NCBI RefSeq assembly: GCF_041381155.1
Contig: NC_091139.1
Coordinates: 7,006,383 to 7,070,382 of the forward strand
Source: Argopecten irradians
Lineage: Eukaryota > Mollusca > Bivalvia > Pectinida > Pectinidae
Length of the DNA: 64,000 nucleotides
Direction: 5' to 3'
The notes under the pieces are model-generated. The model was not told the DNA's origin. It saw only the letters and a program-made list of their open reading frames with translations, and made no database searches. This document shows positions 1 to 45,700 of this stretch, piece by piece; position 1 is the first letter of the stretch, and each line of letters starts with the position of its first letter. The translations under genes were made by a program, and so were the position numbers.

Positions 1-254
1 TCAACATCTGTTGTTATTGTTAAATGGTTCAATTTCAGAGATACTACTATCTATATCATCACCACAGTTCCACAGTTCGAAAATTAATGAAAACAAAAAA
101 AAAACAAAGATGCAAATTATCTAGGCAGCAAATGACTGTAAACATATTGTTTTTGCTATACTTATTATTTTAATTATAAAATTATTACCATAATTTTTTC
201 TCTGACCCGATAAAACGAGTGCCATAAGTACAGGTTTTTTTTCTGAGACGTTAG

Positions 255-692
255 TCACCGGGGCTAATCTTACAGACCGGGCCACGCTATTTACGCTCGT
301 GGAAACACTTCTTTTACTTAGAAAACTGTCGTCTGGGGGAGCGTATGTGATAAATATTTGCTCGGTGTTCAATTCATGGTCAAGAATCCAAATATGCAAG
401 TTGCCCACGGAACAGTCGAGTGTTTGGCTAATGGGTAGAAGCAAAATTGATGTTTTATTGTATTATACTTTGTCCTGTATTTCTCACACAATATAGACGA
501 GTATGTCATATCATGGTTTAAAAGTGTTATTTTTGTTATATATTCAAACAGATATATATATATGAACAAGAGACGGAGTAAAAACTGGATTCGGTTCATT
601 GAATTATCATAGATTTCAATGATTAGATGACTTTTCTTGTTGAATGTTACTGTTATAACTACATTTTCTAAATTACGCATGCGAAAACGCTA
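255..692 (-). repeat. Arm 1 of a large inverted repeat
   Basis: Read on the minus strand, this stretch closely matches 1870-2303 read on the plus strand over about 435 bases, with scattered substitutions and small gaps. The spacer between the arms is about 1.2 kb. Both arms can be translated into related peptides that share the motif TEQIFITYAPPDD and the motif VNSVAR, but I recognise no family. It could be two opposed copies of a dispersed repeat or a duplicated gene fragment. Confidence 0.75.
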
Positions 693-1466
693 CGGATTTG
701 TATAGCTGTACGCATATGGAACACTTATAAAATTAATAATACAAGGCAGTGGATATTAGTTTTTGAAATATAATTTCTTAAATCAAAAGTAATTTCCATG
801 ACAACATACATGTATATGTATATATACACGTGATATTTTATTTGTTTTATTGTTCGAATCTAGTTTATCTTTTCTTATGGAAACAGATCAAGTTCGTTTA
901 ATTTTGATATTCCCAAGAATTGGACTAGCAACATATGTCCCTATAAGAGAACCTTTTCCATTTTTAGGAACGAATCTGATCATGACGTTCCATCAAACTG
1001 AATACCACGTTCCGTTTGAACGAAACCGGTTCATCTGGTACTTCTCGTTTGAGGGTTCCAAGTTCTAAGACGCTTATCCGTCATCTTGAATAATGCATGC
1101 TTAGAATGTGATTGTTTCAAAACGTTTAAACGAGAATGTTTCCCAAAATGTTTATTTCGCTGTTCACAGATGAAGCGTTGAACTATTTTCAATTGGCTAT
1201 AAAATCAGAATAGGTTGGATTACAATTTGAAAACGTGACTTAATTTATTTTTTATACACTGCATTTCAATTCAAAACACGTGATAATCATATATGGTATA
1301 GTAAATCTTTGATCAGATGATTTGAAGATTGTCTTATACCTTATTGGATTATATACATACATTTATGAAAATGCATAAATTAAAAAAATAGTTTCTGCGA
1401 TATCAAACCAAGAAAAAATATACTTTAGAATCTACGTTATGTTATCAGCAAATTATTGCGCGCATA
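693..1466. other. Spacer of the inverted repeat, no gene seen
   Basis: AT-rich DNA between the inverted arms. One open frame at 850-1068 has no recognisable domain and looks like chance. Nothing else can be supported. Confidence 0.4.
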
Positions 1467-1795
1467 TGATCATTGACTGTCAGGGTAATATAAGGACGGC
1501 CTCCCATGAACATGCTGTGTGTTTTGGAAGGCTGTGGTATATTCGTGTTGTATCTTCTTGTATAGTGAAACTCTTGTCCTTTTTATAGTGATATAAGCTT
1601 TAGTATACATCAGAAGACATCATGCAACACACCCTACCGGTCACGTTAACCCGGTCGCTAAGAGCCTTAATCATACCTCGTGTCAGGCGGTGTCAAGGGA
1701 GACGTTTCGAAGAAGAAAATAAGTAGAAAAAAAAGTTAAGAACCTAACTTAAATTTAGTTGTTCGATCATGCGATAGGGGCAGCACGTACTATTC
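1467..1795 (-). repeat. SINE-like repeat, V-SINE/tRNA type, copy 1
   Basis: It shares several blocks in the same order with 52678-53165: the 'cagggtaatataaggacgg' tail region, the 'cttgtatagtgaaactcttg' block, the 'caccctaccggtcac' block and the terminal 'atcatgcgatagggg' block. Short repeats with this tail are common in mollusc genomes. The A and B boxes are too worn in this copy to name with confidence. Confidence 0.5.
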
Positions 1796-1869
1796 TACTG
1801 AAAACTGAAGAAATGATTTAGGAACTAAAATGTATCCGTTGTCTTGTATGTTGTTTACTATGCTGGTAA

Positions 1870-2303
1870 GCGTTTTCGCGTGCGTGATTTAGATAATATA
1901 GTTATAACAGTAACATTCAACAAGAAAAAGTCATCTAATCATTGAAATCTGCGATAATTTTATGAACAGAATCCGGTTTTAGCTATGTTTCTCGTTTAGA
2001 TATATATCTGTTTGAATATATAACAAAAATCATACTTTTCAATCATAATATGACAAACCCGCCTATACTGTGTTCGAAATACAGGACGAAGTATAATACA
2101 TTAAAACATAAATTTTGCTTCTACGCATTGGCCAAACACTGTTTCGTGGGCAACTTGTATATTTGGATTCTTGGCCGTGAGTTTAACACCGAGCAAATAT
2201 TTATCACGTACGCTCCCCCAGACGACATTTTTCTATGTAAAAAAAGCGTTTCCACGCGCGTAAATAGCGTAGCCCGGTTCGTACGATTAGCCCCGGTGTT
2301 AGT
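1870..2303 (+). repeat. Arm 2 of a large inverted repeat
   Basis: Opposed partner of 255-692. This arm holds an open frame from 2050 to 2358 whose central part matches the translation of arm 1. The match begins near 'cgttttcgcgtgcg' and ends near 'gattagccccggtg'. Flanking bases do not match, so the arms seem to be bounded units. Confidence 0.75.
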
Positions 2304-4121
2304 TATGAAAATATTTACAGAAAACAGTTCCGATACAGATAAGGAGCAGCAAAGATAACTGCAATGTAACTTGGGATCATGGGTGCTTGCTATGTAGTGA
2401 CAATGACACATTTTATTGAGAAATTTCTGTCTTTGCATATTGCTATCTAGAGTTATCTGTACTTGTATGTAGGTATCGATTCTCCTACGAGCAGTTGGCA
2501 TCTGTCACGACAAGTGAGAAACTCTTGGCTTAATGTATTTAGAACGCCAATGGGGAATTTGTTAGTATTACTCCCTTAATTGAAACCTATCAATTGAGTA
2601 ATTCAAAGTTGCAAATCCATTCTACAAAGTTGTAAGCTGTTCATCCTCCTCCATTGTAAGTATCAAATAAAATCTGTAGGATATTGGAGTATCCTTCCCT
2701 CCATGGTGTAGCCAAATAATGTTGTCAAAAGTATTAAAATAAAGTGAATACTTGTATCGAAGTTACCGGTCACTTGTTCCGTTGAGCTTTTCTATACTCA
2801 CCTTTGTTCCTTCTCACGATTACATTACATACTCGGTATAGTCTTACGACATAGGCTGTAACTGAATAAAGCCTACTGGAAAACTCCATCCCTGATAAAT
2901 TATCTGGATTTTTTTGGGGTTCTGAAATATTTCCAAATGGCGTCACCTTTTATTGGGTTTTATTAGTTTAACGTCCTATTACCAGTCAGGGTGAAGTTGG
3001 GACGTGTCAGGTTTGTTGGTGGAGGAAAGTGAGAGTATTCAGAATTCAGAAACTATGAAAAGGTGAATCGTTGTTATTAAGGAATGTTGGCATTAAGAAT
3101 AAATCTGCAAAATAAATTTGCCAAGCCCATTTAAGTTGATGAGGTCTGTTTAGTTCCATTAACTTTTTCTTGTTAGCTATTATGTAAAACTTCATCTTTT
3201 ATGAAACATCATCAGCTAGATATTATAATTATGCAAATAGTAGCCCTGGGCGATCTCCTAAAGTGGAAGTGCCGTATTGGTCAACTGTGCGTAAGGTGAC
3301 ATTTTCACCAACAACCCGAATAAGTGTATGATATGATCAGCTGGAAACATGGCACACATTGAGGACGCTGATGTTAAACATAGATAGGGATGGTCATTTG
3401 TTATATGAACGACCACATGTTTAGGAATTTTATTTTTCGTAATAATTCAATTTTGCCTTTCATAAAAAAAATATCCATTGCTTTGATTAAATAGTCTCAT
3501 GACGTCTACCTTTGTAACGTTACCTCCGATTGGCACGTTACAATATTGTAATTGTTTGAAAACATTACGAACTTTGTTATTCATTTTAATAATAAAACAT
3601 TGGATTTAATTGTAACTATTGACATAAACATTGTCAATGGTTTGAAAATCAGAAGACACTCCCATCAGTAGCATCTTGATTTTTATGAGAGCTCACTCTC
3701 ATTTTTTGTGTGATATTTAAAAAGTCCTAGTATATTCAATTCTAAAATATTGAAAACATGTATAGGTTTTTTTTCATTGATAACGTGTTGATACTATTGT
3801 TGATATAAATATCAGTTAATATTTACATTTTATTATACGGAACCACATCCGGTTAAGATACTGCGGTTTCTGGCATTTTTAAAACGTTTCGGTATATTGG
3901 TACATGTACGTGCATACCACTAGTTCATAATGACCAGTCCTTACAGATGATTGGTATTATTTATTCAATACTAAAACACAATACAAATATCTCGATTAAA
4001 ACAATAGTTTTTATCTAACGTTAGTTGCATGGACGAAATTGATTGCTTTTCTATTTCAATGTCACATAATGACTGTATTAAAATATCTTATTATATAACA
4101 TACATTTAACAAAATTACATT
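2304..4121. other. Intergenic, with a SINE-tail fragment near 2945-3040
   Basis: The stretch 'tttaacgtcctattaccag' followed by 'cagggtgaagttgggacg' near 2968-3000 matches the tail of the SINE-like repeats at 52.7, 56.4 and 61.7 kb. The rest is AT-rich and without a supported gene. Confidence 0.4.
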
Positions 4122-4466
4122 TTAGGATGCTCCACCGCTGACAAATGGTATTTTGTCTTTATCAAAAAACAGGAGCAGACGATTTAGTATTTTTCTTCAC
4201 TTACATAAAATTACTTACTTTACACCATTAAAATTGAGCTTGTAATTTTAAGTTTGAAATATAAAAAAAATAATTAATTGCATCCCGAAAAAGGTCCGTG
4301 GCACCATATCCTATATGGAATGAAGTACTGATTACGCATGCACCAAAAGCAAAACAAATTATTTTATATATTTTTTTGTATTAATTAGACATATATACGA
4401 TAAATACCAATTATTGTTCAAATGATGAATATCCTTTATGCCCTGTCGGCGGTGGAGCATCTTTAA
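4122..4466 (+). mobile_element. MITE family A, copy 1
   Basis: The ends are inverted: 'ggatgctccaccgctgaca' on the left and 'tgtcggcggtggagcatc' on the right, about 345 bp apart. The inside matches 40580-40943 over nearly its whole length, and 48695-48964 and 59288-59548 in the opposite orientation. No coding capacity is seen, so this is a non-autonomous DNA transposon. The autonomous partner is not in the window. Confidence 0.85.
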
Positions 4467-6784
4467 AGTTTATAAGCATTAGCGAATGTCAATAAAAAGG
4501 GAGAGGGATCAAACTTGATATATTTAAACAAGAATTGTAGCAACACTAATATAATCATAAACAATGGTTAAATCATCCTTGTAACGAGCATTTTCATTGG
4601 ATTAAAAATGTGTTTTATTATTTCATAATATAAAAGAAAAATGATGTCGTCTTAGATTTGCTGAAATAGCAGCGCAATATTTTCGAAAAAAAAGTCCTTT
4701 AAATGGAATAGAATTTCACCATATCGGATTATTGAAAAAAATAATAATCACCAGTTTCTGAAAAAAAGAGTTTATTATAATTTTTTTCTTGTATTCATGT
4801 TTCGTAATTTAGTAAGTACATTATCGTACATAATCTCGTTAATTTCTAATTAAGTGAAAGCCTGAAGATTTAAGATGAGTGAGGAGACTGGCATGTGACT
4901 ACTTAGGAAAAGATAATTGAAATATCGTGACATAAAATGTCTTGTTGGTCGTATGTTTTTATAATGAGGTCAACATTAAGATGATGTTGATATAATGGGC
5001 ATTGTTCTTGTGTTTTTTATGTTCGCCAAATATACAATGTACCAATACGAAGTGCTAATTAATATATGACAAAAGGTTGACAATTGTAAAACAGAACTAT
5101 ACCATTTATGAATATATATATACTTTTTTCTTTTATTGATTTCGATGTAGTATAATTGGGCGTTTTTCTTTATTTTTTTACTTAGTATGCACGCAAAATA
5201 TGCGGACATATAATGTGCTTATTGATATATGACATCAAATTGGCCTTATACAATAACAAAAAACTTAGAAATACAATATATAATGATTTATGAATATAAA
5301 TATGATATTTACCTTTTTTCCAATTAATTTAAATCTGAAGTTATAATGGACTTTTTGTTTTGTTTTTTCTATTGTCTAAAAGCTAATTGATACATGTAAG
5401 TAGGTTAACTCGAGAAAAAAAAAAAAAAAAAATCATCTGGGATTTTATAAGTGCTGTTTTTATTTAATTTATCAAAATAGAATTTATAAATGCAGTTGAC
5501 GTTTACCCCCACTCTGCATTATTTTTTTTATTCTTTAGCATCCTAAGTCTTATTTGTTTCCTTTCCACTCGAACGATTAATTAGGTCAAGTCAAGTTGTC
5601 TACTGTTGTGTTTTACATTAAGACAATAAAACCAGGAAAGGTAATCAGAAAAAAAGATGTTTCGTGTTTGTTTTAATGGTATTGACTGTATCATAATAAA
5701 AAAAATATGTTTAAGTAATAGAACTTATAAAACGGTAAATTCTATATTTGAACATGAAATCATCATTAAAATTCAAAACTTTTTTTTAAATGATGAGGAC
5801 ACGCATCACTTGTATAATGCAGATCACCAATAACACAATGATCTTACGGTGTGGGAAATCGATGAAGCGTAAAGAACATTGTGGGGTTTCGCGGTTTGTG
5901 TGGTAAACAGTGAGACCTCTGATAGAATTCATGAGTTTTGAGGCAGTGATAATTTGAGAACTTTCATTTGACCTGATTGTATCATTTAACTATTTTTTAC
6001 AGATTATACTTTTAACTGTTTGACATGTTGTTCTTTTTGTTTCATTTTTGGTACCATAAAGTAGTTTCTTTCAAAATTCTTGTTTTTAAGAAAAAAAGTT
6101 TTACAGATACATGGCTACAACCTGTATAAACTACATCAAATATTAAAAGTCTCAAGAGAAATGTAAAAATCTGAGGTGTCATCGTGTGTAACATTGTCTA
6201 GTTATGAGTGGGTTTTTTTAAAATTCATCGGCGTCATTTTGCTATATGTATATTGCTTTAAATCCAGATAAGGCTTCATCGAAGACTATTTGCTTGGTAT
6301 TATTGTAATCTTTTATACATGTACCTTTGTCATGCTGAATCTAGCAAAATGCATATCTATATAGCTATCGTTCAGAAATAGGAGAAGTCGTGCATAATAA
6401 AGTTTATAATGATAATGATGCAAAATTAACGTTTACCAAAACTTACAAACTACATGTTATTTTTACTTCTGAAACCATCACCACACACATGTATAGCCAT
6501 CAATTGTTACCCAAAGGAAAATGATTCAACGAGGTATTGGCAGAAAATGCTTCAGCTCTTAGATGGCCGTACATATCTTTTTATCAAATAAGATGCCAAT
6601 ATTCAGCATATACCAGATGACATAATAGAGAATGAGAGTGGAAAACGATATGATGATGCTGCATTCTTTCATGTTAACATATATCTATTCGTGCTTGGAC
6701 TATGCGACAATGATTCGAATAACAATCATCCGATTTAAAATATTTGATAGCTACCATGTAAACAAGGATAGTTTTTGCACGACA
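4467..6784. other. Intergenic AT-rich DNA with a weak duplication
   Basis: Between about 5020 and 5340 two diverged copies of a unit of roughly 190 bp can be followed by shared words such as 'atatatgacaaaagg'/'atatatgacatcaaa' and 'atttatgaatata'. No gene is supported. Confidence 0.35.
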
Positions 6785-7200
6785 AATAGTTATGAAACAT
6801 TCGTTGTTTTTTTTTTAAATTTTTTTTTCATTTTTTAGAGCATTTAAAGAGAATTGCTATATGAACATTAGTATAGTTTATATTCGTACACAGCAAATAG
6901 TTATGCAATATTCGACTTTATTTTGAAGAGCATTGAAAAAGAATTACTAAATGAATATTCGTATATCTTATACTCGTACACAACAAATAGTTATGCAATA
7001 TTCGATTATTTTCTGAAGAGATTTGAAAAAGAATTTCTATACGAATGTTTACTTTACGGACATTCGTATATCTTATAATCGTACACAACCAATAATTATG
7101 CAATATTCGACTGTTTTCTGAAGAGCATTGATAGAAATGTACATAAACATTCGTATATTTTATACTCGTTTTATCAATTTCGTATATTTTATACTCGTTT
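6785..7200. repeat. Diverged tandem repeat, unit about 100 bp
   Basis: About 3.5 units share the words 'agttatgcaatattcga', 'gaagagcattgaaaaag' and 'attcgtatatcttata' in a fixed order. The open frames reported here on both strands come from the repeat and are not genes. Confidence 0.7.
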
Positions 7201-8592
7201 TATCAATTTCACTAGATCTACTGATTATTTTGATTATTAAGTCCCATGGTTTTTACGGTCAATATCGACTACGCTTATGCATCAATTAGTTACATCAATG
7301 GTAAACAAACAATAAAACATCATTCACACAAAGCATTGGAAAATAAAGGAAAGTAATATTATCTATGATAAAACCACTGAAAGGTTCACTCACAAAGTTG
7401 AAGAAAGCGAAGTGTGTGACTTAGTATTCAACTAGAACTTTCGGCTAAATCGACTGTAAATGATGAAACCCTATGAAGCTAAAATTATAAAATGGTTTAG
7501 AATGTACTTGGAGGTTGCGAGGCAATATAGTACAAAGCAATTTGTTGTCCCAAAAACACGTTGCGTCCATTAAATTGTACAAAATAAATGGATGTATGGG
7601 AATGGTAGCCTATCAAGTGTCCCTTAATTAGTCGAATATCACGACTAGTTTCTTCACAAAAATAATTGATGGAAGCAGAAAGACGTATATCACAGATGCA
7701 GAGAAAATTATATGAAAATTTATGCTTCGTTTCAAAATTAATATTCAAAGTTAATTAATTTCTGTTAAACTACTTGAAGATATTAACTTTACTTTAAAGG
7801 AAAAAATAATTAAAAGTTAACGACTATGATAAATCATAGCAAAAGTTAACATAAACAACGGGAGTGGCTACGTTACATGACATCTCTCCCAATCATGCCT
7901 GACCGGACCGCCTCTAAACTATTCTTTAAAGCAGCGCTTACGTTCAAATCAAGAATACCATAAACTTAAAGATATTTTGGTAATTCAAAGGTCGTGGTAT
8001 GTGCACGGCCGACGCGATGTTTAATCCACAGTCCGGCGCCTCTATGTGTCAACTGTTCTAATACAGTGACACCTTGTCGTCACCTCTCGGAGATTATGCT
8101 ATCAGAGCCGCTAATAAAACAAAGGTTTCACCTGGTTAGTGCCTCTACCTGCCGTTACCTGTACCGAGGCCTGTACACTGTAAGGGATGTTTTAGTATGC
8201 TCGGCAGCTCGTTTGTATGCTGTGTATGGTGAAGACGTCAGCGATGCTGTCAAGTGGTGATAGATTGTCATCGAGTGGCTCTGACCTTAGAACAGAGAAC
8301 ATTAGAGACATGACCCACCTCCACCATTAGTCAAGTTCTCGGAGTACAGAGAAGAGAGATTCGTACAGTTATTGTAGATATTTACGTTGGACTGTGTAGC
8401 TTCAGTGTGTCATCAGTGTATAGCTTATACAGTTTACATATGTTCGTAGTGAAGGAATGTTGTCGTTACAGAAGTGTGTTCATAGAAATGAACGGATTTA
8501 TTAGGCCACATGGGAAAATACGCCAATAACCGTGAAGTATACCGCGTTCTGAACACAAGATGATAGTGGTTGTTTGTTGTATGTGACCCAAC
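7201..8592. other. 5' flank and probable 5' UTR of the EGF-TIR gene
   Basis: GC content rises from about 7860 towards the start codon at 8593, as expected for promoter-proximal and UTR sequence. No TATA box can be assigned with confidence. The short open frame at 7994-8260 shows no family features. Confidence 0.3.
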
Positions 8593-9748
8593 ATGGTCCT
8601 CCATTGGTCTTTGGATTGTACCTTATCATTTTACATCTCTACTTTGGTCGCGGGATTATTGACGCAATCCGTACTCTCGCAAAGTCATTTTGGTTCTCGT
8701 CCCCTTTGGGGATCAGGCAGGGGGCGACCACCAGGTAAAACCTGTCTCGATTACTGTCAGTTATTTTCAATATGTCACCACGGAAAATGTTTTCTTGATC
8801 AGTCTTCATGCGAAGTGATTTGCGCATGTGAGGAAGGATATACGGGGAAATGGTGTAAAGAGAAGGTGAGTACGACAGACAACAATACAGACGACAATAG
8901 TACAAAGGTCGATACTCCATGGATATCTCATTCACAAGCCGCACCATCTGGTCCAACAAAACGACCTCTCATGATATTAGGGACTTTCAGACCAAGAAAT
9001 GGCAACAGGAAAAGCCCGCCATTTATTTTCCCCATGAGCAAGCCCCCATCCATCACAAAAAACAATGAAGACGATTCCGATCATGAAAAAACCAAGCCAG
9101 CTGATAATGCCTCAAATAATGTTAAATCAAATACTGAACAGATGGTTTTACCTAATAGTACTACCATGACGGTCATACGTACCGAACTAGAAGATATGAA
9201 TAACTTAACGAGAGTCAGCATTGAATCCACCCCATCTGCATCACTAGAGATGGCTGACAAAGACACTGGCAATGTTACTAGTGAATCAGACAATTCAACC
9301 GTCCCTGCCTTATCCGGGGTACTGGATGACATAAAACTACCAGAACCTACACCAGAAGAATCCACTTCCCCATTAACTATGTGTGAAAGGTCGTGTCTTG
9401 TCGGTCAGTGTATTTTGAACGAAGGGGTTTACAAATGTGTTCAGGAGTCCACACCTTTCCATATGTCCACCATGGATAATTCCTCGACAAGAGGAGAATG
9501 CGGAAAAGGCTTTAAGTGTAAGCATGGGATCTGCGATCCTGAACAACGTCGTAAAGGCCGGATTAAGTGTCTGTGTGATAAAGGCTGGATCGGTACCCTG
9601 TGTGAACACGCATGTGAACTGGACTGTGGTAAACACGGAGAATGTGTCCATACTAACAGGAACAAAACCGCCATGATTTGTCAGTGTGATGCTGGGTTCG
9701 ATGGAGACAAGTGTCAGGACTTGATTGTCCTACCAGAATACACTAAAG
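8593..9748 (+). CDS. EGF-TIR receptor, coding exon 1 (signal peptide and EGF modules)
   Basis: Encodes residues 1-385 plus one base. The open frame runs on to 9864, but a donor AAAG|GTAATT at 9748/9749 leads in phase into exon 2; the extra 38 codons would otherwise give a secreted form. Visible motifs are CACEEGYTGKWC, CLCDKGWIGTLC and CQCDAGFDGDKC, the typical C-terminal half of EGF modules. Confidence 0.88.
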
Positions 9749-12700
9749 GTAATTACAATATATCAAAAATGTTGAAGGGACCTTTCCCTTTTTGGACATT
9801 TGGAAAATGTTTCAATCCTAAATATAAACATAGGAAAGTTGATTATATATCCTATGAGGCCTAGTGGTTATAAATGCATTACCAAAAGGTATATAAATAC
9901 AACATTCACAATGTATTGGTCAAGAACTTAAGAACTTAGTTATCATCTCAGAATTGTGGTCAATCTGAGTGTATCAATAAAGAATTTTTCTTTTCTTTTT
10001 TTCATTTAGCGATACTACATTTTCCATTTTCCTGTTAAGTTTCAATTCAATACCCTAAAACTGTTTCAAACAAAAGAAATTATCCTTTACCAAGTTGTTA
10101 ATTGTTATTTCTCTGTAGTTGACTAACGTGTTTCGTAAAAGATTGTACCTCCCGTAATATAAAAACAAAATCAACCATGATAGGCTAATTGGAAAACATT
10201 ATTAGTATTCTCACTTCCTTATTAAATAATATATATCTGGTATATTATAAACTCTTAGAAAGAAATAGTAAAACAATGAAAAGTTTTAATTACTGCTTAT
10301 TCTGAATATGTTAATTAGAATGAAAATGAATAAATTAAGATTCCATTGACCTGATTTCAAATTTCGGAGTGTGGTATAATTCATATCATTTTAGCATAAT
10401 AAGAGCGTGTATGAGAAACAGAAGGTATGACCAAAACATCGTAACAATATATATTTCACACGATTTGGAAGATAGTATATGATATAAAATAAACAGTTCA
10501 AAAAGTATAATAAAGACGCGAATTGATAACTATGGTTTATTTCAACAATTTGTTATGTACAATAATGTGCAATCAACGTCTCGGTTGGTTGCACACAACA
10601 CGACATCATATATCACTGAGTTCTTTGTTATACTCTGTCATGACTTCAGGACCACACCTCCAGCTAATCCGCATGAACTGCATAACTATACGGACAGCTT
10701 CAGCTACATCTATGCGACTAAAATTAAAGAAATAAATCACTAGATAATGTTAAGAACAAATAAATTCCCTTTCCTATGATTATGTTTTAATATAATTATA
10801 TTTTGCTATTTTTAAGTGTTTTGGATATCCAATTAATAATTTACGTTGTATGGATTGGTGAACACAATTGATGCACTATAGATATACAAAACACACTACC
10901 GCGTGGGGAACGACGATCAATCACAAATGATATAAAAATGTCACGGGTCACTCTATAAGACAGTAATATATACTTTTAGTAGATCAGATACGTCAGTTAT
11001 TCGCGTCCTGTCTCTATAACTTGACTGTTAACCCGTGTCTCTATATCGCCTTGTAAAGACTTGGGTATTTGGAAAATTTTCATCTTATCTTCTTATTGCT
11101 TATATTATCTCATCATGCAGCATAATTACTGTTTTATACCATCAAATATCTTATCCGTTCCTTTATATTGTATAATCAAGTATATTAACCTAGGTGTCCA
11201 TTCGGCGTTTAGTCGTTTCATCGGTAAAAACGTATTTACTGGCATAGATAGCCTGCCATTTCATACAAAATTGCTCGAACCCGTTCCCATTACTTGTCAA
11301 ATAGAGAAGATGTACAGTTAAGGTCGTATTATTTACTCTAATTGTTCTACTGTAACTGTTTATTGAAGTTCTTTACATATGTCTTAAAAATTCTTTTTTT
11401 TATTAAATTTGCAACTATTTTGGAGATCTCAAGCAAAGTAACATAAGACAGAGAATCGCTAAATACAGGGGGTCGTCGTGACAGTCTCGACTGTATACAC
11501 TTTCTGAATCGATCCTTTCTACAACTGTGTATGCTATGTTGACAACACATTGTAAATAGTTCAATTATTTCACCTGGATCTATTCAATTTTAAATTTAAA
11601 TTTTGCAAGACATTGTCTTAAATATAAAACACACGACACATACATAAATGCATACAAACACACAAAAAATTGCATATCTACCGTGATTTAAATCAGCTTG
11701 AAATTGTTTTTGTCTAAACTGCAACAAAACATTCAACTTTTCTTTTAGTTAAATTTGCATTTAATTGAACATAGGTTTAGTAAATAAATGCAATGGGAAA
11801 ATCTAAATATAAATTATATTTATTTTTCTAACATCGGTCAAAAGAATTAAATCAGCTTAAAATGGTTTGTATCACAAATAATATCACTGCAACAAAACAT
11901 TCAACATTTTTGTTAATAATATTTTGCATTGAATTGAAAATATATTAAGTTAATTAATTCAGTGAGAAATGTCTAAATATAAATGCTAATGTTATCTCTA
12001 TCATCGGTCAAAAGAATTAGCCTTTTATTATTACTTTTAAATGACACTGCACTTGTGCAGTTTGGAACCCTAATTTGAATTACATGTCCCTATACATTTT
12101 AATTACAGTGTAGCAAGCAATAAATACAGTATATATTTTAACTCTGTACGTGTTTCATTATGCAAAAGTAATATAATAGTTTACTGTTTCCTACTTTATG
12201 TTCGGTATATCACTGTATGTATATATAATTCACACGTGCGTGCCATATTCGCTGTGCACTGAGCTACCTTTAGCTGGAGGGCAAATTCTTCATATGGATA
12301 TACATATATATTTTGACTCACCTTCCAAGATTATCGCTTCTTAAAACAATCGTTTTTATGCTCTCCCCTATGCATAAGATTTTGAAAATTCAATTTTTTT
12401 ATCATATTACTTTGAGACATTTAATCTTAATCTGCACAACCTCTTTAAGAAATTAATCTGCCAAGGAATGGATGTACTCAAACTCACACAAATTAAACCA
12501 TGTAGTGAACTAGGGGATCTTTCCAGTGTCTTTCTTTAAAAATACATAATTCTATAAAGACTATAAAAGGCTGTATCATTATGATTTTTTAATGTTTAAA
12601 ACCATTCTGATCTAAATGAATTTATAAGTCACACAATATTTGGGATATTCTTCCAAAAATGAAGTCTGGTGACACTATAGAAGAAAGAAACATCATCATT

Positions 12701-15700
12701 AGATGTATTTTATTCTGTTTAAAGTTCTGATATAACCTAAAGTGTTCCAAGGTATTATTAATATATCCTAAAGTATTCTAAGTCATTATCTATCCTAAAC
12801 TAGTCCAAGGTATTACATATCCTAAAGTGTTCAAAGTATTTTTTAACCTTTTTTATATTTCTTTTATTTATGACATTATATTAAACATATGCAATAAAGA
12901 AAGTGTCATAAACATTCATTCACACCTTCACTCTTAATTTGCTAAAGTATTCTAAGCTATTATACATCTAAGTCATTTATTCTCAAGTAAGATATATCCT
13001 AAAGTATTCTATTCTAAAAAGTATTACATACCCTAAAGTGTTCCAAGGTATTATAATATATCTAAGTTTAGTTTATATTCTAACCTCTAAGTATTACATA
13101 CCTAATGTTCCAAGATATTATATATATATCCTAAAGTGTTCTAAGGTATTATACATCCTAAAGTATACTTTAGTATTATATACCCTTAAGCGTTCCAAGG
13201 TATTGCATATTATCAAGTGTTCCAAGTTATATACCCCAAATGTTACATTTTATAGCTCACGTTTTCTTTAAGCTTAGGAACAAATGAAATACTATAGGTC
13301 ATGAACTCAATATACAAATATTTCCCCACGTTAAGATTGTAGTTATTATTAATAAACATCCTCCTCTTAAACCTCACGTTTTCCCCAACTGTATATTATT
13401 TCCAGCGCTGTGAAGAAAAAATGAGGTTTCCATCTACGTTAATTAACGGTTAGACATTAGCTTAACATTAACACATTCTCCTAAAATTATTATTATTAGT
13501 TTTATTATACATTATTAACTTATCATTACTTACAGAAGTTGAAGATACAACAGTACATCTGTATGTCATTGGTATCACCATTGGCTTCGTCGTCGTCTTC
13601 ATTGTCATCTTCGTCCTCATCACTTACTGCATGTGGCGACGACGATTCGTCTTCATCATGAAAATTGTGCATTACTTCCAACACTATGAAGAAAATGGTA
13701 AGTGATGTGCTGAAATTCCAACCGCTGTTCGCTTTTTTAAACAAAATGGGATAAAATCGACAGTATAAACATTATTTTTTCATATATTGATATTTATATA
13801 CAAACAAAACATAGAACATTTTGGAATTAGGAAACAAGTATTGATATGACACTATACGAAGATAATACAATGTATGTTACGCTATATTTGGAGTGTTATG
13901 TAATATGTAGGCAAAGTATTCATTTCAGTTTGATCGCACAGAAAAAGAGCCCCCCTTTAGAAAGAAGACCCTCTATAGAAAGAAGACCCCCTATTTTTAA
14001 AAAAGGAAGAAAAGAAAGAAAGAAACATTTTTGATTACCATATTACTCTTCCCCTGATCTAAATGATTACCATATTACTCTTCCCCTGATCTAAATGAAA
14101 ATAATATGATGAAAATTTCGAATTAACATTATCGCTGCCTAGCCACATTGCTATATATCCCTCTGTTAATTTGTTAACTTTGTGTATTTTTGTGGTTTGC
14201 AGATGGACAAGTCTTCGACGCTTTTATTTCCTACAAATCTTCAAAAGAAGATGAACATTTTGTTCTTACGAAGCTTTATCCAAAGCTCGAAATGGAAATG
14301 GGATTTAAAGTGTGTATGCATTTCCGAGACTTTACACCTGGTGAAGGTACGTATTTTAAATAGATGATAACGTAAGTGGAATCACTAACTCTTAGTGCTC
14401 AGCTATCCTAGGGTTCTGACAGCATCAACATCTTAGTTTCTCCACAGTATTTCATGATATACACATTGCTCGTGGCTTTCATGATATACACATTGCTCGT
14501 GGCTGCTGTAGGATTTCACATAGAAGATATCTAATTAATATAAATTCACATAAACATCAAGAAAACTTAATATCAATTTCAGATCGATTTCAAGTTAATT
14601 TGCATGTTATGTACTTATTAATTTGATTATAACAATTAGATATGTGACCTAGAATAAAACCAACATTGGTGTATTCGGGGTTCAAAAACATTGTAATTCT
14701 ATTGTCTACAATATAAAATACAAATGTATATTAGTTTCATTTTTGTTTTATTCATTAATTAGAAATTTCATAACATATTTTTTTAGCCTTCAAAGATGTG
14801 CTTATGTTTATGTCTTAACTAATGCATTTTTATATTTTACAGCTATAGCAAACAACATCATCTCGGCCATCGAGAGGAGTCGACGTACGATTATGATTCT
14901 TTCTCCGAACTACATCAACAGTGAATGGTGCCGGATGGAATATCAAAAGGCACAACACGAAATGTTAAAGATGCGACACAAAATTATACCAATCGTTCTG
15001 GAGGATGTGTCAAAGTGCAAGACAATGGACAAAAACCTTAAGACCATTCTGAGCACAGTAACGTACATAGAATGGCCGGGTGAAGAGGATTCTAAAAAGC
15101 TAGAGAAATTTTGGAAGAAGATTGAATTGTCATTACCAAAGAAACGTTCCTGTGACCAGTCCTCGTCCAGTAGTGTGGAATCAACGTCGACTAGCTCTTC
15201 AACGACATCTATTGACATTGATGATCCCATCAAGAGTTCTGAAGATCCCGATTCTGACACCAAACTCACTACAATATCAGATTCTGTTAACGAGAAGATG
15301 GGTCCCCATGTTTCGAAGAAATCCTCGAAACATGGTATTGGAACAGGAATACCAAAAAGTGAGACGCGTTTGAAGAAAATGAAAGATGTTTTGAAGTTGA
15401 AAATTAATAATAACAACAACCGTATTTTGTGTCGCGAAATGTCTGTGGATTCAAACATATCAACACCAGCCTCTGCTACTACATCGCCTGGTTTCTTTGG
15501 TGGGAAGGACTCCACACCATTGCTGTCTAGAAAGTTATTGAACTGTAAACAGCTGAATAACTGTGGCGCTAAGTCATCTACGTGGTCACATCGCAACCAT
15601 AACAGGGGACGAAGAAACTCTCAGACACAGTCTCAATCCTTCACAGAGAGGGACTATAATCGTCCTGGTTTGGATGTAGTTCCACAAACACCCGATAGTG

Positions 15701-16377
15701 CGGTTCCTTGTGACAAGGATTTGCCAGACGTGTGCCGCACAGGCGGGTATTATAACATTGTGTGTGGTGAGAAGAATAGTGACTGTACAACAGTGAATAA
15801 TTTGGCGGGTATCCCACAATGCCCTACTTGTGTTTTCTCTCAGGACGATGTGGATGTTAATTCTGTCATAAACTCCAGTATCATTGGTCAGGAACAGGGA
15901 CCACCTGAAAATAATTTAGGAACGTCATCTCAAATGAATATTAGTTTTAATCAGGTACAGCCAATGTACTCGACAAGTGTGTATAATTACGACAGTAACG
16001 GCGAAAGTGTTGACGTCACAAACAATTCAGTGACAACAAATATGACTGCGGAATGTGTTACGTGCGCACTAAGCTGTGACGTAGACAACACATCCCAGGA
16101 TAGAGGTGCCCAGTTTACGTCGGATTTAAACCCGACTTTGGAAGAACGGAGAAACAACAATAACATAATCAATGAATCGGATATAAAGATTTCCAACATA
16201 CAACCAAACGAAAATCCATTACTTAACATTACCAATCTCCCGAACGGTAGTCGTTATATACCAAACTTTTATGTCAATAATGCATTCGTTGAGAACGAGG
16301 ACAATAGACTGCGCACACCAATTCCACCATTACGCATTAAAAAGTTAATGCGGCAAAATTCTCAAGAAAATTTATAA
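8593..16377 (+). CDS. EGF-like / transmembrane / TIR receptor, 998 residues, four coding exons
   Basis: Exons 8593-9748, 13536-13697, 14203-14346 and 14843-16377 join in frame (2997 nt); all three introns are phase 1. A signal peptide covers residues 1-30. Cysteine-rich EGF-like modules lie at 51-88, 303-337 and 341-374, with a degenerate one at 264-282 and a Ser/Thr-rich, N-glycosylation-rich linker at 89-263. The helix at about 394-417 is followed by an Arg stop-transfer. The TIR domain (443-584) has box 1 FDAFISY, the BB loop RDFTPGE with Pro485, SEWC with Glu520, and box 3 FW at 577-578. It is closest in feel to TLR TIRs. The 410-residue tail is Asn/Ser/Thr-rich and ends in a basic patch. 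An in-frame TGA nine bases upstream and a good Kozak context (A at -3, G at +4) fix the start. A plasma-membrane immune or developmental receptor signalling through TIR adaptors is inferred. The ligand is unknown. Confidence 0.9.
9749..13535 (+). other. Intron 1 of the EGF-TIR gene
   Basis: 3.8 kb of AT-rich DNA with no further exon visible. It holds a degenerate tandem repeat at 12735-13250 and ends in 'cattacttacag'. Confidence 0.7.
12735..13250. repeat. Degenerate short tandem repeat in intron 1
   Basis: Many imperfect copies of a unit of about 25-30 bp, recognisable as 'tatcctaaagtgttccaag', interrupted between about 12840 and 12940. The apparent open frame at 13038-13271 is a by-product of this repeat. 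Confidence 0.75.
13536..13697 (+). CDS. EGF-TIR receptor, coding exon 2 (transmembrane helix)
   Basis: 162 bases, phase 1 at both ends, residues 386-439. It encodes the whole membrane-spanning helix (LYVIGITIGFVVV and on) followed by MWRRR. Acceptor 'cttacag' and donor ATG|GTAAGT are both strong. On the opposite strand a 72-codon open frame is a shadow. Confidence 0.9.
14033..14097. repeat. Direct duplication of about 32 bp
   Basis: Two near-identical copies of a unit beginning 'gattaccatattactctt' lie back to back in intron 2 of the EGF-TIR gene. Confidence 0.9.
14203..14346 (+). CDS. EGF-TIR receptor, coding exon 3 (TIR box 1 to BB loop)
   Basis: 144 bases, phase 1 at both ends, residues 440-487. 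It carries box 1 (FDAFISYK), the helix A region and the BB loop up to RDFTPGE. Acceptor 'gtttgcag' and donor GAAG|GTACGT. The next exon resumes exactly where TLR family alignments continue. Confidence 0.92.
14452..14507. repeat. Direct duplication of about 27 bp
   Basis: Two adjacent copies of a unit starting 'tttcatgatatacacatt' in intron 3. Confidence 0.9.
14843..16377 (+). CDS. EGF-TIR receptor, coding exon 4 (rest of TIR and long tail)
   Basis: Acceptor 'atattttacag' at 14842. It encodes residues 488-998: AIANNIISAIERSRRTIMIL, SPNYINSEWC and the FWKK box 3, then about 410 residues of low-complexity tail without a second domain. The tail has Ser runs near 590-605, Asn runs, a YYNIV tyrosine motif and a C-terminal basic patch (PPLRIKKLMRQ). 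The open frame extends upstream to 14743, but that part is intron. Confidence 0.92.
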
Positions 16378-22384: not shown

Positions 22385-32055
<9,671 letters not shown>

Positions 32056-42739: not shown

Positions 42740-45700
42740 CTGAATTGAAAAAAAAACCATGAATATTAATTCAAACATATCTAGAGTATATAAAACATAT
42801 CAAACTACCTGGCAGAATTGTAATAAACATCATATCCCAAGGAAAATTTTAAAAGGGTAATCATATAATCTCAACAAGAGGCCCATGGGCCTTAACGGTC
42901 ACCTGAGTTCAGATACAGAATGAAACAAAGACATGCATATAAACACTATATATTTGCCCATCAGGCCCTTGAAGTCAGTCAGTGATTTTATAAATTTGAC
43001 TTTTTAATCTATGAAGATTATTTGGTTCCATTATATCTGTGAATTCAGAAGAAAGATTTTTGAAATGTTATCCATTTTGACCCCTTTTGGCCCCACCCCT
43101 CTGGCCACTGGGGGTCGGCCAGGACCAATATTGATATGATGTTAAAATGCTATCTCAGGCTAATAACTGTAACCCAGATTGACTAATTTCCTATGAAAAC
43201 TAAGCAAATAATGTTCCTAAATGTGTTTTTCCTATATAAACTATAGTAAATTTGACCCCTTCCCCAGGGGAAAATCTGAGGTCCCCGGGCCATGAAATTC
43301 ACAATTTTTTGTAAAGGGCCTTAAGACCTTCCAATCTATTAAGAGTATCTGGTTCCATCAAATCTGTGAATTCAAAAAGAAGATTTTTGAAATAACCATT
43401 TTGACCCCTTTTGGCTCCGCCCCTCTGGCCCCAGGGGGTCGGCTACGGCAAATATGGATATGATGTTAAAATGCTATTTCAGGCTAATAATTCTAACCCA
43501 GTTTGACTAATTTCCTATGAAAAATAGGCAAATAATGTTCATAAATGTGTTTTTCCTATATAAACTAAAGTAAACTTGACCCCCTCCCCAGGGGGAAACA
43601 TGAGACCCCAGGGTCATATAATTCACAATTTTTGTAAAGGACTTTAAGACCTTTCCATCTATGTAGAGTATTTGATTCTACCAGTTCCAGAATTTCAGAA
43701 GAATATTTTTGAAGTTTTAGCCTATTTATCCCATTTTGACCCCGCCCCTAAGGCCCCTGGGGATAAGTCATGGAAAATTTGTTAATAAGATTCAATGGCC
43801 ATCACATAGGGATAATTCTGACTACAATTGACTAATTTCCTATTACAAATGAGTTAACAACAAGAGGCCCAGAGGGCCTGTATCGCTCACCTGGTTTTTT
43901 GTTAGTAATTATCACAAGACTCTGACAATAAGAAAAATAAGCAAAATTGACTCCCAAAGTTTAATTTGAATCACAACCATACAATGATGCTATTGATACC
44001 ATACAAATATGCTATCCAATACATAGGTTCAGAGACAAAGTAATTCATATGAAAATAGTAGCCTAATTGACCTTTTTGACCTCGCATCTATTGCCGTTTA
44101 AGGCCCCGGGGGTCAGCCCTATCATTTGTACAATTTCAAATCCCAACCCTATAAGGATGCTACCATTGCATTATGAGTGCTCTTCCATTCTTAGTTGCAG
44201 AGAAGTCGTTTATATGGAAATAGCCAAATTGACCCCTTTTGACCCCACCCTTCAGGCCCCGGGGGGTCAGCCCTATCATTTGCAAAATTTTGAATCCAAA
44301 CCCTATAAGGATGTAACCATTGCATTATGAGCGCAATCCCATGTTAAGTTGCAGAGAAAAAGTCATTTATATGGAAATTGACCACTTTTGACCCTGCCCC
44401 TCAGGCCCCCGGGGGTCAGCCCTATCATTTGCTCAATTTGGAATCCCCAGCCTACAAGGATGCTACCATTGCATTATGGGTGCTATACCATGCTTAGTTA
44501 GAGAAGAAGTCATTTATATGGAAATAGCCAAAATGACCCCTTTTGACCCTGCCCCTCAGGCCCCCGGGGGGTCAGCCCTATCATTTTCACAATTTTGAAT
44601 CCCCACACTATAAGGATGCTACCATTGCATTATGGGTGCTATACCATGCTTAGTTTCAGAGAAGAAGTCATTTATATGGAAATAGCCAAATTGACCCCTT
44701 TTGACCCCGTCCCTCAGAGCCCCCGGGGGGTCAGCTCCATCATTTGTACAATTTGGAATCCCCACACTATAAGGATGCTACCATTGCATAATAGGTGCTA
44801 CATGTATACCATGCTTAGTTGCAGAGAAGAAGTCATTTATATGAAAATAGCCAAATTAACCCCTTTTGACCCCGCCCCTCAGGCCCCCGGGGGGGTCAGC
44901 CCTATCATTTGCACAATTTGGAATCCCCACCCTATAAGGATGCTACCATTGCATTATGGGTGCTATACCATGCTTAGTTTCAGAGAAGAAGTCATTTATA
45001 TGGAAATAGCCAAATTGGCCCCTTTTGACCCCGCCCCTCAGGCCCCCGGGGGGTCAGCCCTATCATTTGCACAATTTTGAATCCCCACCCTATAAGGATG
45101 CTACCATTGCATTATGGGTGCTATCCCATGCTTAGTTTCAGAGAAGAAGTCGTTTATATGGAAATAGCCAAATTGACCCCATTTGACCCCGCCCCTCAGG
45201 CCCCCGGGGGGTCAGCCCCATCATTTGTACAATTTTGAATCCCCACCCTATAAGGATGCTACCATTGCATTATGGGTGCTATCCCATACTTGGTTTCAGA
45301 GAAGAAGTCGTTTATATGGAAATAGCCAAATTGACCCCTTTTGGCCCCGCCCCTCAGGCCCCCGGGGGGTCAGCCCCATCATTTGTACAATTTTCAGTTA
45401 GTAGCCCATAAGGATGCTACCAGTCAAATTTTGTTGAAATCCGACCAGCGGTTATGGAGAAGAAGTCGATTGTTGACGGATGCTGGACGACGGACGCTGC
45501 GGTATCCCATAAGCTCACCTTGGTCCTTTGGACCAGGTGAGCTAATAATGCTCAAAAATGTGTTTTTCCCTATATAAACTATAGTAAACTTAACCCCCTC
45601 CCCAGGGGGAAACCTGAGACCCAAGGGTCATATAATTCACAATTTTCATGAAACACCTTAAGACCTGTCCATCTATGAGGAGTATTTGATTCTACCATTT

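Follow-up and report, generated by a model that had tools for sequence, protein, structure and literature searches.

The window analysed here is a stretch of 64,000 nucleotides (nt) of Argopecten irradians contig NC_091139.1. Its forward strand carries, at 8593..16377, a gene for a predicted protein of 998 residues that joins EGF-like modules to a TIR domain (EGF-TIR). Splice signals and homology confirm it as a real gene, and its product is probably a type I receptor in the membrane, one of the EGF-TIR proteins of molluscs, signalling in the manner of Toll-like receptors (TLRs) through MyD88 to NF-kB. From the N-terminus, a leader precedes three EGF-like modules, which are followed by one transmembrane (TM) helix, then a TLR-type TIR domain, and finally a cytoplasmic tail; an EGF ectodomain with a single TM helix and a TIR domain is found in four genes of the host genome, this one included.

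Gene model and domain architecture

The gene consists of 4 exons, all on the forward strand. Exon 1 (8593..9748) contains the start codon, the leader, the EGF ectodomain and a spacer rich in Ser, Thr and Asn, and ends in phase 1; its reading frame opens at 8587, right after a stop and shortly ahead of the start codon. Intron 1 (9749..13535) is followed by exon 2 (13536..13697, 162 nt), which encodes the TM helix (approximately 13559-13621) and the conserved juxtamembrane motif MKIVHYFQ. Exon 3 (14203..14346, 144 nt) runs from TIR box 1 to the BB loop, and exon 4 (14843..16377) supplies the remaining TIR domain, to approximately 15168 and with box 3 included, as well as the tail. All introns are GT-AG and in phase 1, and the joined translation has zero internal stops, in agreement with the in-phase 998-residue product given by an earlier sequence-only reading. 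Open frames this long are not explained by chance: at the base composition of each exon, the probability is approximately 1.5e-10 for exon 1, and for exon 4 it is approximately 4e-15. The GC content of the coding parts is 0.40–0.44, versus 0.29–0.31 in introns 1 and 2.

The same reading had listed a signal peptide, three EGF-like modules, one helix, a conserved TIR domain with BB-loop Pro485 and a long tail, all of which are borne out. A hydrophobic leader is assigned by eye to approximately residues 1-29. The signature C-x-C-x-x-G-[YFW]-x-G-x-x-C occurs at three places in the protein. Module 1 (8743..8856, residues 51-88) follows this Cys pattern and has counterparts, recognised by eye, in paralogue loci L030 and L043, while modules 2 and 3 (9499..9714, residues 303-337 and 341-374) form one EGF-pair unit. 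Cys positions add a half EGF-like module (9382..9438, Cys264-282) to the list. A looser EGF signature, searched on both strands of window positions 1-14000, finds none beyond the three places in exon 1. The protein also has nine N-glycosylation sequons, and hydropathy gives one strong TM segment at approximately residues 394-414. Pfam reports TIR on residues 444-596 (E 7.6e-30), with box 1 as FDAFISY (444), box 2 as DFTPGE (containing Pro485 of the BB loop), and box 3 as FW (577). The tail region (15169..16374, approximately 400 residues) is an open frame with a GC content of 0.41.

An EGF ectodomain without leucine-rich repeats (LRRs) or Ig domains had been proposed, with intron 1 named as the place where an exon of either kind might lie. 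Pfam reports neither domain in the 998-residue protein. A hidden exon in intron 1 was sought among open plus-strand fragments of at least 35 amino acids (aa), 10 of 21 fragments being scanned; no domain was found, the sole match being a sub-threshold zinc-ribbon (E 0.11), and the claim stands within that scope. The scan left out the 11 shorter fragments and introns 2 and 3, and a very small exon could escape it. As judged from the protein and these 10 fragments, the protein thus has neither the LRR ectodomain of TLRs nor the Ig ectodomain of interleukin-1 (IL-1) receptors, and it does have the TLR-type TIR domain after a single TM helix. Cytosolic TIR adaptors are defined by the absence of leader and TM segment and by Death, ARM or SAM domains; here a TM segment is given by hydropathy and no such domain is matched in Pfam.

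Paralogues in the host genome

The host genome (845.8 Mb, 1508 contigs) was searched with the whole protein. Three loci are 51–58% identical to it in the TIR exon, namely paralogues A (C6:41.893 Mb), B (C15:27.697 Mb), and C (C15:26.099 Mb). With 46 of 140 candidates scored, matches elsewhere have at most 39% identity, and the ones inspected turned out to be TLRs. The second search, with the TM-TIR part of paralogue C (97 of 97 candidates scored), again places the same four loci on top, with at most 40% elsewhere.

In each of paralogues A, B, and C, a TM exon and a TIR domain split between exons are preceded by EGF exons, which by inspection likewise start with ATG followed by a hydrophobic leader. 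In the window gene, A, B, and C, respectively, the TM exon measures 162, 162, 150, and 168 nt and the first TIR exon 144, 144, 141, and 144 nt (the paralogue models are our own). Both junctions flanking the first TIR exon have identical codons and phase in the four genes, the second TIR exon begins at the same BB-loop codon in all of them, and the TM/TIR junctions are modelled as phase 1. This shared exon plan, together with the TIR-exon junctions, supports the window model by homology, beyond its splice signals. As for the paralogue models themselves, sequence conservation is poor around the acceptor ahead of the TM exon, and that acceptor was picked to fit. In paralogue B the donor modelled at the TM exon is weak (GTCGGT), and the phase-1 donors of its EGF exons reach 6/9 consensus only, the second EGF exon also having an 8/9 phase-0 donor. 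A chance fusion of two neighbouring genes is rejected, since EGF exon, TM exon, and split TIR follow one another in the same way at three other loci.

The juxtamembrane motif is invariant in 4 of 4 family members. From it to the end of the TIR domain, nonsynonymous differences per site are 0.12–0.26 versus 0.69–1.08 for synonymous ones; no ratio is given because synonymous sites are saturated, and values above 1 are a counting artefact. On these counts the stretch from the TM side to the TIR domain is taken to be under constraint. The window gene is the outlying family member according to both the tree described below and the per-site differences, and in alignment its tail exceeds those of A, B, and C several-fold in length.

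TIR type and phylogeny

Among solved structures, the window TIR domain matches TLR1 best (6e-27), along with TLR6, TLR15, TLR2, and TLR10, and then IL1RAP (3e-19). The TIR domain of paralogue A gives the same TLRs first (2e-21), followed by IL1RAP (3e-15). Further matches of the window domain are SIGIRR (2e-16) and MyD88, the latter at only 6e-6. SIGIRR dampens IL-1 receptor signalling, and its place among the matches, as well as the unusually long and divergent tail, would suit an inhibitory or decoy receptor that sits at the surface, binds partners, and dampens TLR signalling. The BB-loop Pro and boxes 1–3 are, however, intact, and the domain is nearer to TLR1, TLR2, and TLR6 than to SIGIRR; such a role appears unlikely.

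The same domain could also be a TIR enzyme, cleaving NAD like SARM1 and acting as an effector. The Glu after the SEWC motif, E520, is present at what we take to be the position of the catalytic Glu of SARM1. In contrast, the domain is TLR-type, this Glu is also found in human TLR1 in the alignment, and we know of no TLR that acts as an NADase, and we consider an enzymatic role very improbable.

The host genome has 90 TIR matches, of which loci L001-L028 hold 22 whole and 2 partly; six further matches, at loci L029-L032 and L044, were added later. The 22 matches are mostly in LRR-bearing open frames, and no EGF signature is found in the printed frames of L001-L028. A tree of 29 TIR domains was built from 21 of 22 non-redundant stretches of these loci (one, shorter than 125 aa, was dropped), 3 solved TLR domains, 1 partial Ig-TIR domain, and the 4 EGF-TIRs. 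The four EGF-TIRs form a single group (support 100/99), which is placed with the short TLRs L021, L022, L024, and L023 and the Ig-TIR candidate L032 (support 81/84). An LRR regular expression gives zero matches in L022 and one in L024, and LRR-like segments are visible there by eye. Tentatively, the TIR domain may have derived from a short TLR whose LRR ectodomain gave way to EGF exons.

Locus L032 (C16:12513076-12520710) is a candidate Ig-TIR gene with an Ig-like segment, recognised by eye, and an intron in the BB loop. Kinship with the EGF-TIRs on account of this intron was set aside, as the L032 intron, placed by eye, interrupts the codon for Gly in the PG motif and lies two codons ahead of theirs. 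Another candidate, L044 (C14:29837792-29842592), is a twin-TIR TLR with one open frame, two Pfam TIR matches, and LRR-like segments seen by eye; according to the part of PMC6836662 consulted, this structure had previously been reported only in bivalves. At C11:29.18-29.37 Mb, 17 TIR matches are clustered, several of them in open frames of more than 800 aa.

EGF units and their arrangement

The EGF-pair unit is found by pattern 4 times in the EGF exon of A, twice in B, and twice in C, the last also having further single modules. The nine units aligned (that of the window and 8 from the paralogues) share 17 invariant columns, all Cys or Gly except one. Pfam scores for the paralogue exons differ: A has EGF_TEN slightly below the cut-off (4.6e-17), C (locus L043) has EGF_DL_JAG above it (2e-12, 47.4 versus 27), and B has only EGF_Teneurin, below it (7e-4). 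For the window unit, AlphaFold2 gives a model with a mean pLDDT of 77 and a pTM of 0.50. Foldseek reports no match to this model at E <=0.001; the best, weak ones are to EGF tandems of Notch and Delta (E 0.002), and the highest TM-score among the 50 matches listed belongs to SCARF1 (TMq 0.53, E 0.018, also weak).

Two alternative readings concern the ectodomain. EGF modules commonly mediate protein–protein contact. Together with the Delta/Jagged and teneurin models matched by the paralogue units, and the weak likeness to Notch, Delta, and SCARF1 structures, this would fit a developmental or adhesion receptor that uses its TIR domain for something other than immune sensing; nothing direct stands against it, and the Toll pathway has both developmental and immune roles in animals; we give it a slim chance. 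The second alternative is a signalling subunit paired with a separate recognition protein. The window ectodomain has few modules, and TM-TIR proteins of Hydra appear to work with LRR membrane proteins, according to the part of PMC8260672 consulted. The EGF unit is, however, conserved and repeated in the paralogues, which suggests a recognition or adhesion role of its own, and the subunit reading seems quite unlikely.

A genome search with the EGF exon of A, in which 26 of 26 candidates were scored, gives nine matches. Every one of them falls at locus A, B, or C or a short way upstream of A. Thus, within this search and by pattern, the EGF-pair unit was found in the host genome only at EGF-TIR loci; the search is insensitive to diverged units, as the window exon itself fell below the threshold. 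The matches include two extra EGF exons upstream of A on the same strand (C6:41905342-41906538 and C6:41901152-41902093), in addition to its own exon (41898017-41899525). By inspection, all three open with ATG and a hydrophobic leader, and the phase-1 donors after their EGF arrays score 9/9, 8/9, and 7/9, respectively, with weaker candidates also present. Neither genome search lists a TM or TIR match between them. In a simple scan for acceptors, neither the second nor the third leader-EGF exon has one ahead of it, which says little about alternative first exons, because the scan also finds none for three B and C exons that need one.

The three exons may be alternative first exons of one TM-TIR cassette, or else EGF-only secreted genes. 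Ahead of the TM exon of the window gene, no second EGF exon is seen in window positions 1-14000. A broader proposal makes the EGF-TIRs a receptor class of their own whose ectodomains can be exchanged: phase-1 EGF exons, which in at least one gene would be three first exons each bearing a leader, would be joined alternatively to one TM-TIR cassette. If it were true, a single signalling end would serve several sensing ends; we regard it as possible, though doubtful.

Relation to known receptors

Animal TIR receptors are usually sorted into LRR (TLR) or Ig (IL-1 receptor) kinds. With short bivalve TLRs the EGF-TIRs share the TIR type and the TM-TIR order, and the nearest non-family loci of the host genome reach 40% identity. 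They differ from TLRs in that no LRR was found, and in that introns split their TM-TIR region, whereas the TLR loci inspected are mostly one LRR-TIR open frame. Like IL-1 receptors and Ig-TIR proteins such as the candidate L032, they have a non-LRR ectodomain and a multi-exon TIR domain; in contrast, they have no Ig domain, and their TIR domain is closer to TLR1 than to IL1RAP. Tandem EGF modules on a single-pass protein recall SCARF/Draper-type receptors, which are not known to carry a TIR domain. Bivalve TIR proteins were reportedly surveyed by Gerdol and colleagues in 2017, a work known here from citing papers.

It had been suggested that the gene may belong to a described class, and this is indeed so: EGF-TIRs are already listed for oyster and Aplysia, and the window gene is a further member. 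In the parts of these sources consulted, a figure legend of the 2015 Crassostrea gigas immune inventory (PMC4346834) names 'EGF-TIR' as a category, and the 2022 inventory of Aplysia californica has the same category with two genes, LOC101855416 and LOC101856027 (PMC9334734). The likeness, an EGF-like and a TIR domain in one mollusc protein, is thus at the level of category only. As for the domains that define the class, TIR (IPR000157) is present according to Pfam, and the EGF-like domain (IPR000742) is represented by the three full Cys signatures, the Pfam EGF cut-off being passed in only 1 of 3 paralogue exons. No functional study of any EGF-TIR was found in the open-licence literature, to which the search was confined, subscription papers being outside its scope. 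The description of the gene as an under-described sensing system therefore holds as to function, which is little studied; its sensing part is taken up below.

Proposed mechanism

In the preferred reading of the gene as a TLR-like receptor, the EGF pair and the glycosylated stalk would bind a ligand that is a host protein, sits on a cell surface, or has been processed, and ligand-driven dimerisation would pair two TIR domains. These would recruit MyD88 via the BB loop and thereby activate NF-kB, as in oyster TLRs, and the long tail may contribute regulation particular to the window paralogue. The MyD88/NF-kB route is proposed because oyster TLRs, according to the part of PMC3788107 consulted, activate an NF-kB reporter via MyD88 in HEK293 cells.

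The structure is shown by sequence and homology, while the sensing, signalling, and immune roles are inferred. Several points weigh against this reading. In the window protein, all Pfam EGF models score below their curated cut-offs, EGF_Teneurin coming nearest (21.1 bits versus 24.3). The tree contains no MyD88 or SARM rows and carries a long-branch warning that includes TLR L023 with the EGF-TIRs. The SEWC motif occurs in the window TIR domain alone, and as the other 3 of 4 carry SEF, signalling may differ within the family. In the excerpts cited above, the Aplysia EGF-TIRs are filed under adaptors (PMC9334734), and the oyster TLRs were not stimulated by any pathogen-associated molecular pattern tested (PMC3788107); ligands may therefore be indirect.

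A conserved third kind of TIR receptor, with EGF ectodomains, would broaden the wiring from recognition to NF-kB in animals without antibodies. The four paralogues and their exon maps supply constructs and junctions for telling sensor, decoy, and developmental receptor apart.

Other features of the window and genome

Window positions 256-691 and 1869-2298 form an imperfect inverted repeat of four blocks, 77–93% complementary, with arms approximately 1.2–1.7 kb apart, perhaps a mobile element. A 90-base tandem repeat of approximately 2.4 copies lies at 6830-7046. On the minus strand, 22388-23296 and 26870-27238 are exons of a tubulin gene (Pfam Tubulin_C 1.9e-45 and Tubulin 4.7e-36), beta-type by eye. 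A tandem array at 44104-45422 has a period of 158 bases and 8.4 copies, with one frame open for 177 aa and only a sub-threshold Pfam match. Elsewhere in the host genome, C1q matches number at least 150, with 150 of 241 candidates scored; together with the candidate twin-TIR TLR, they fit a bivalve.

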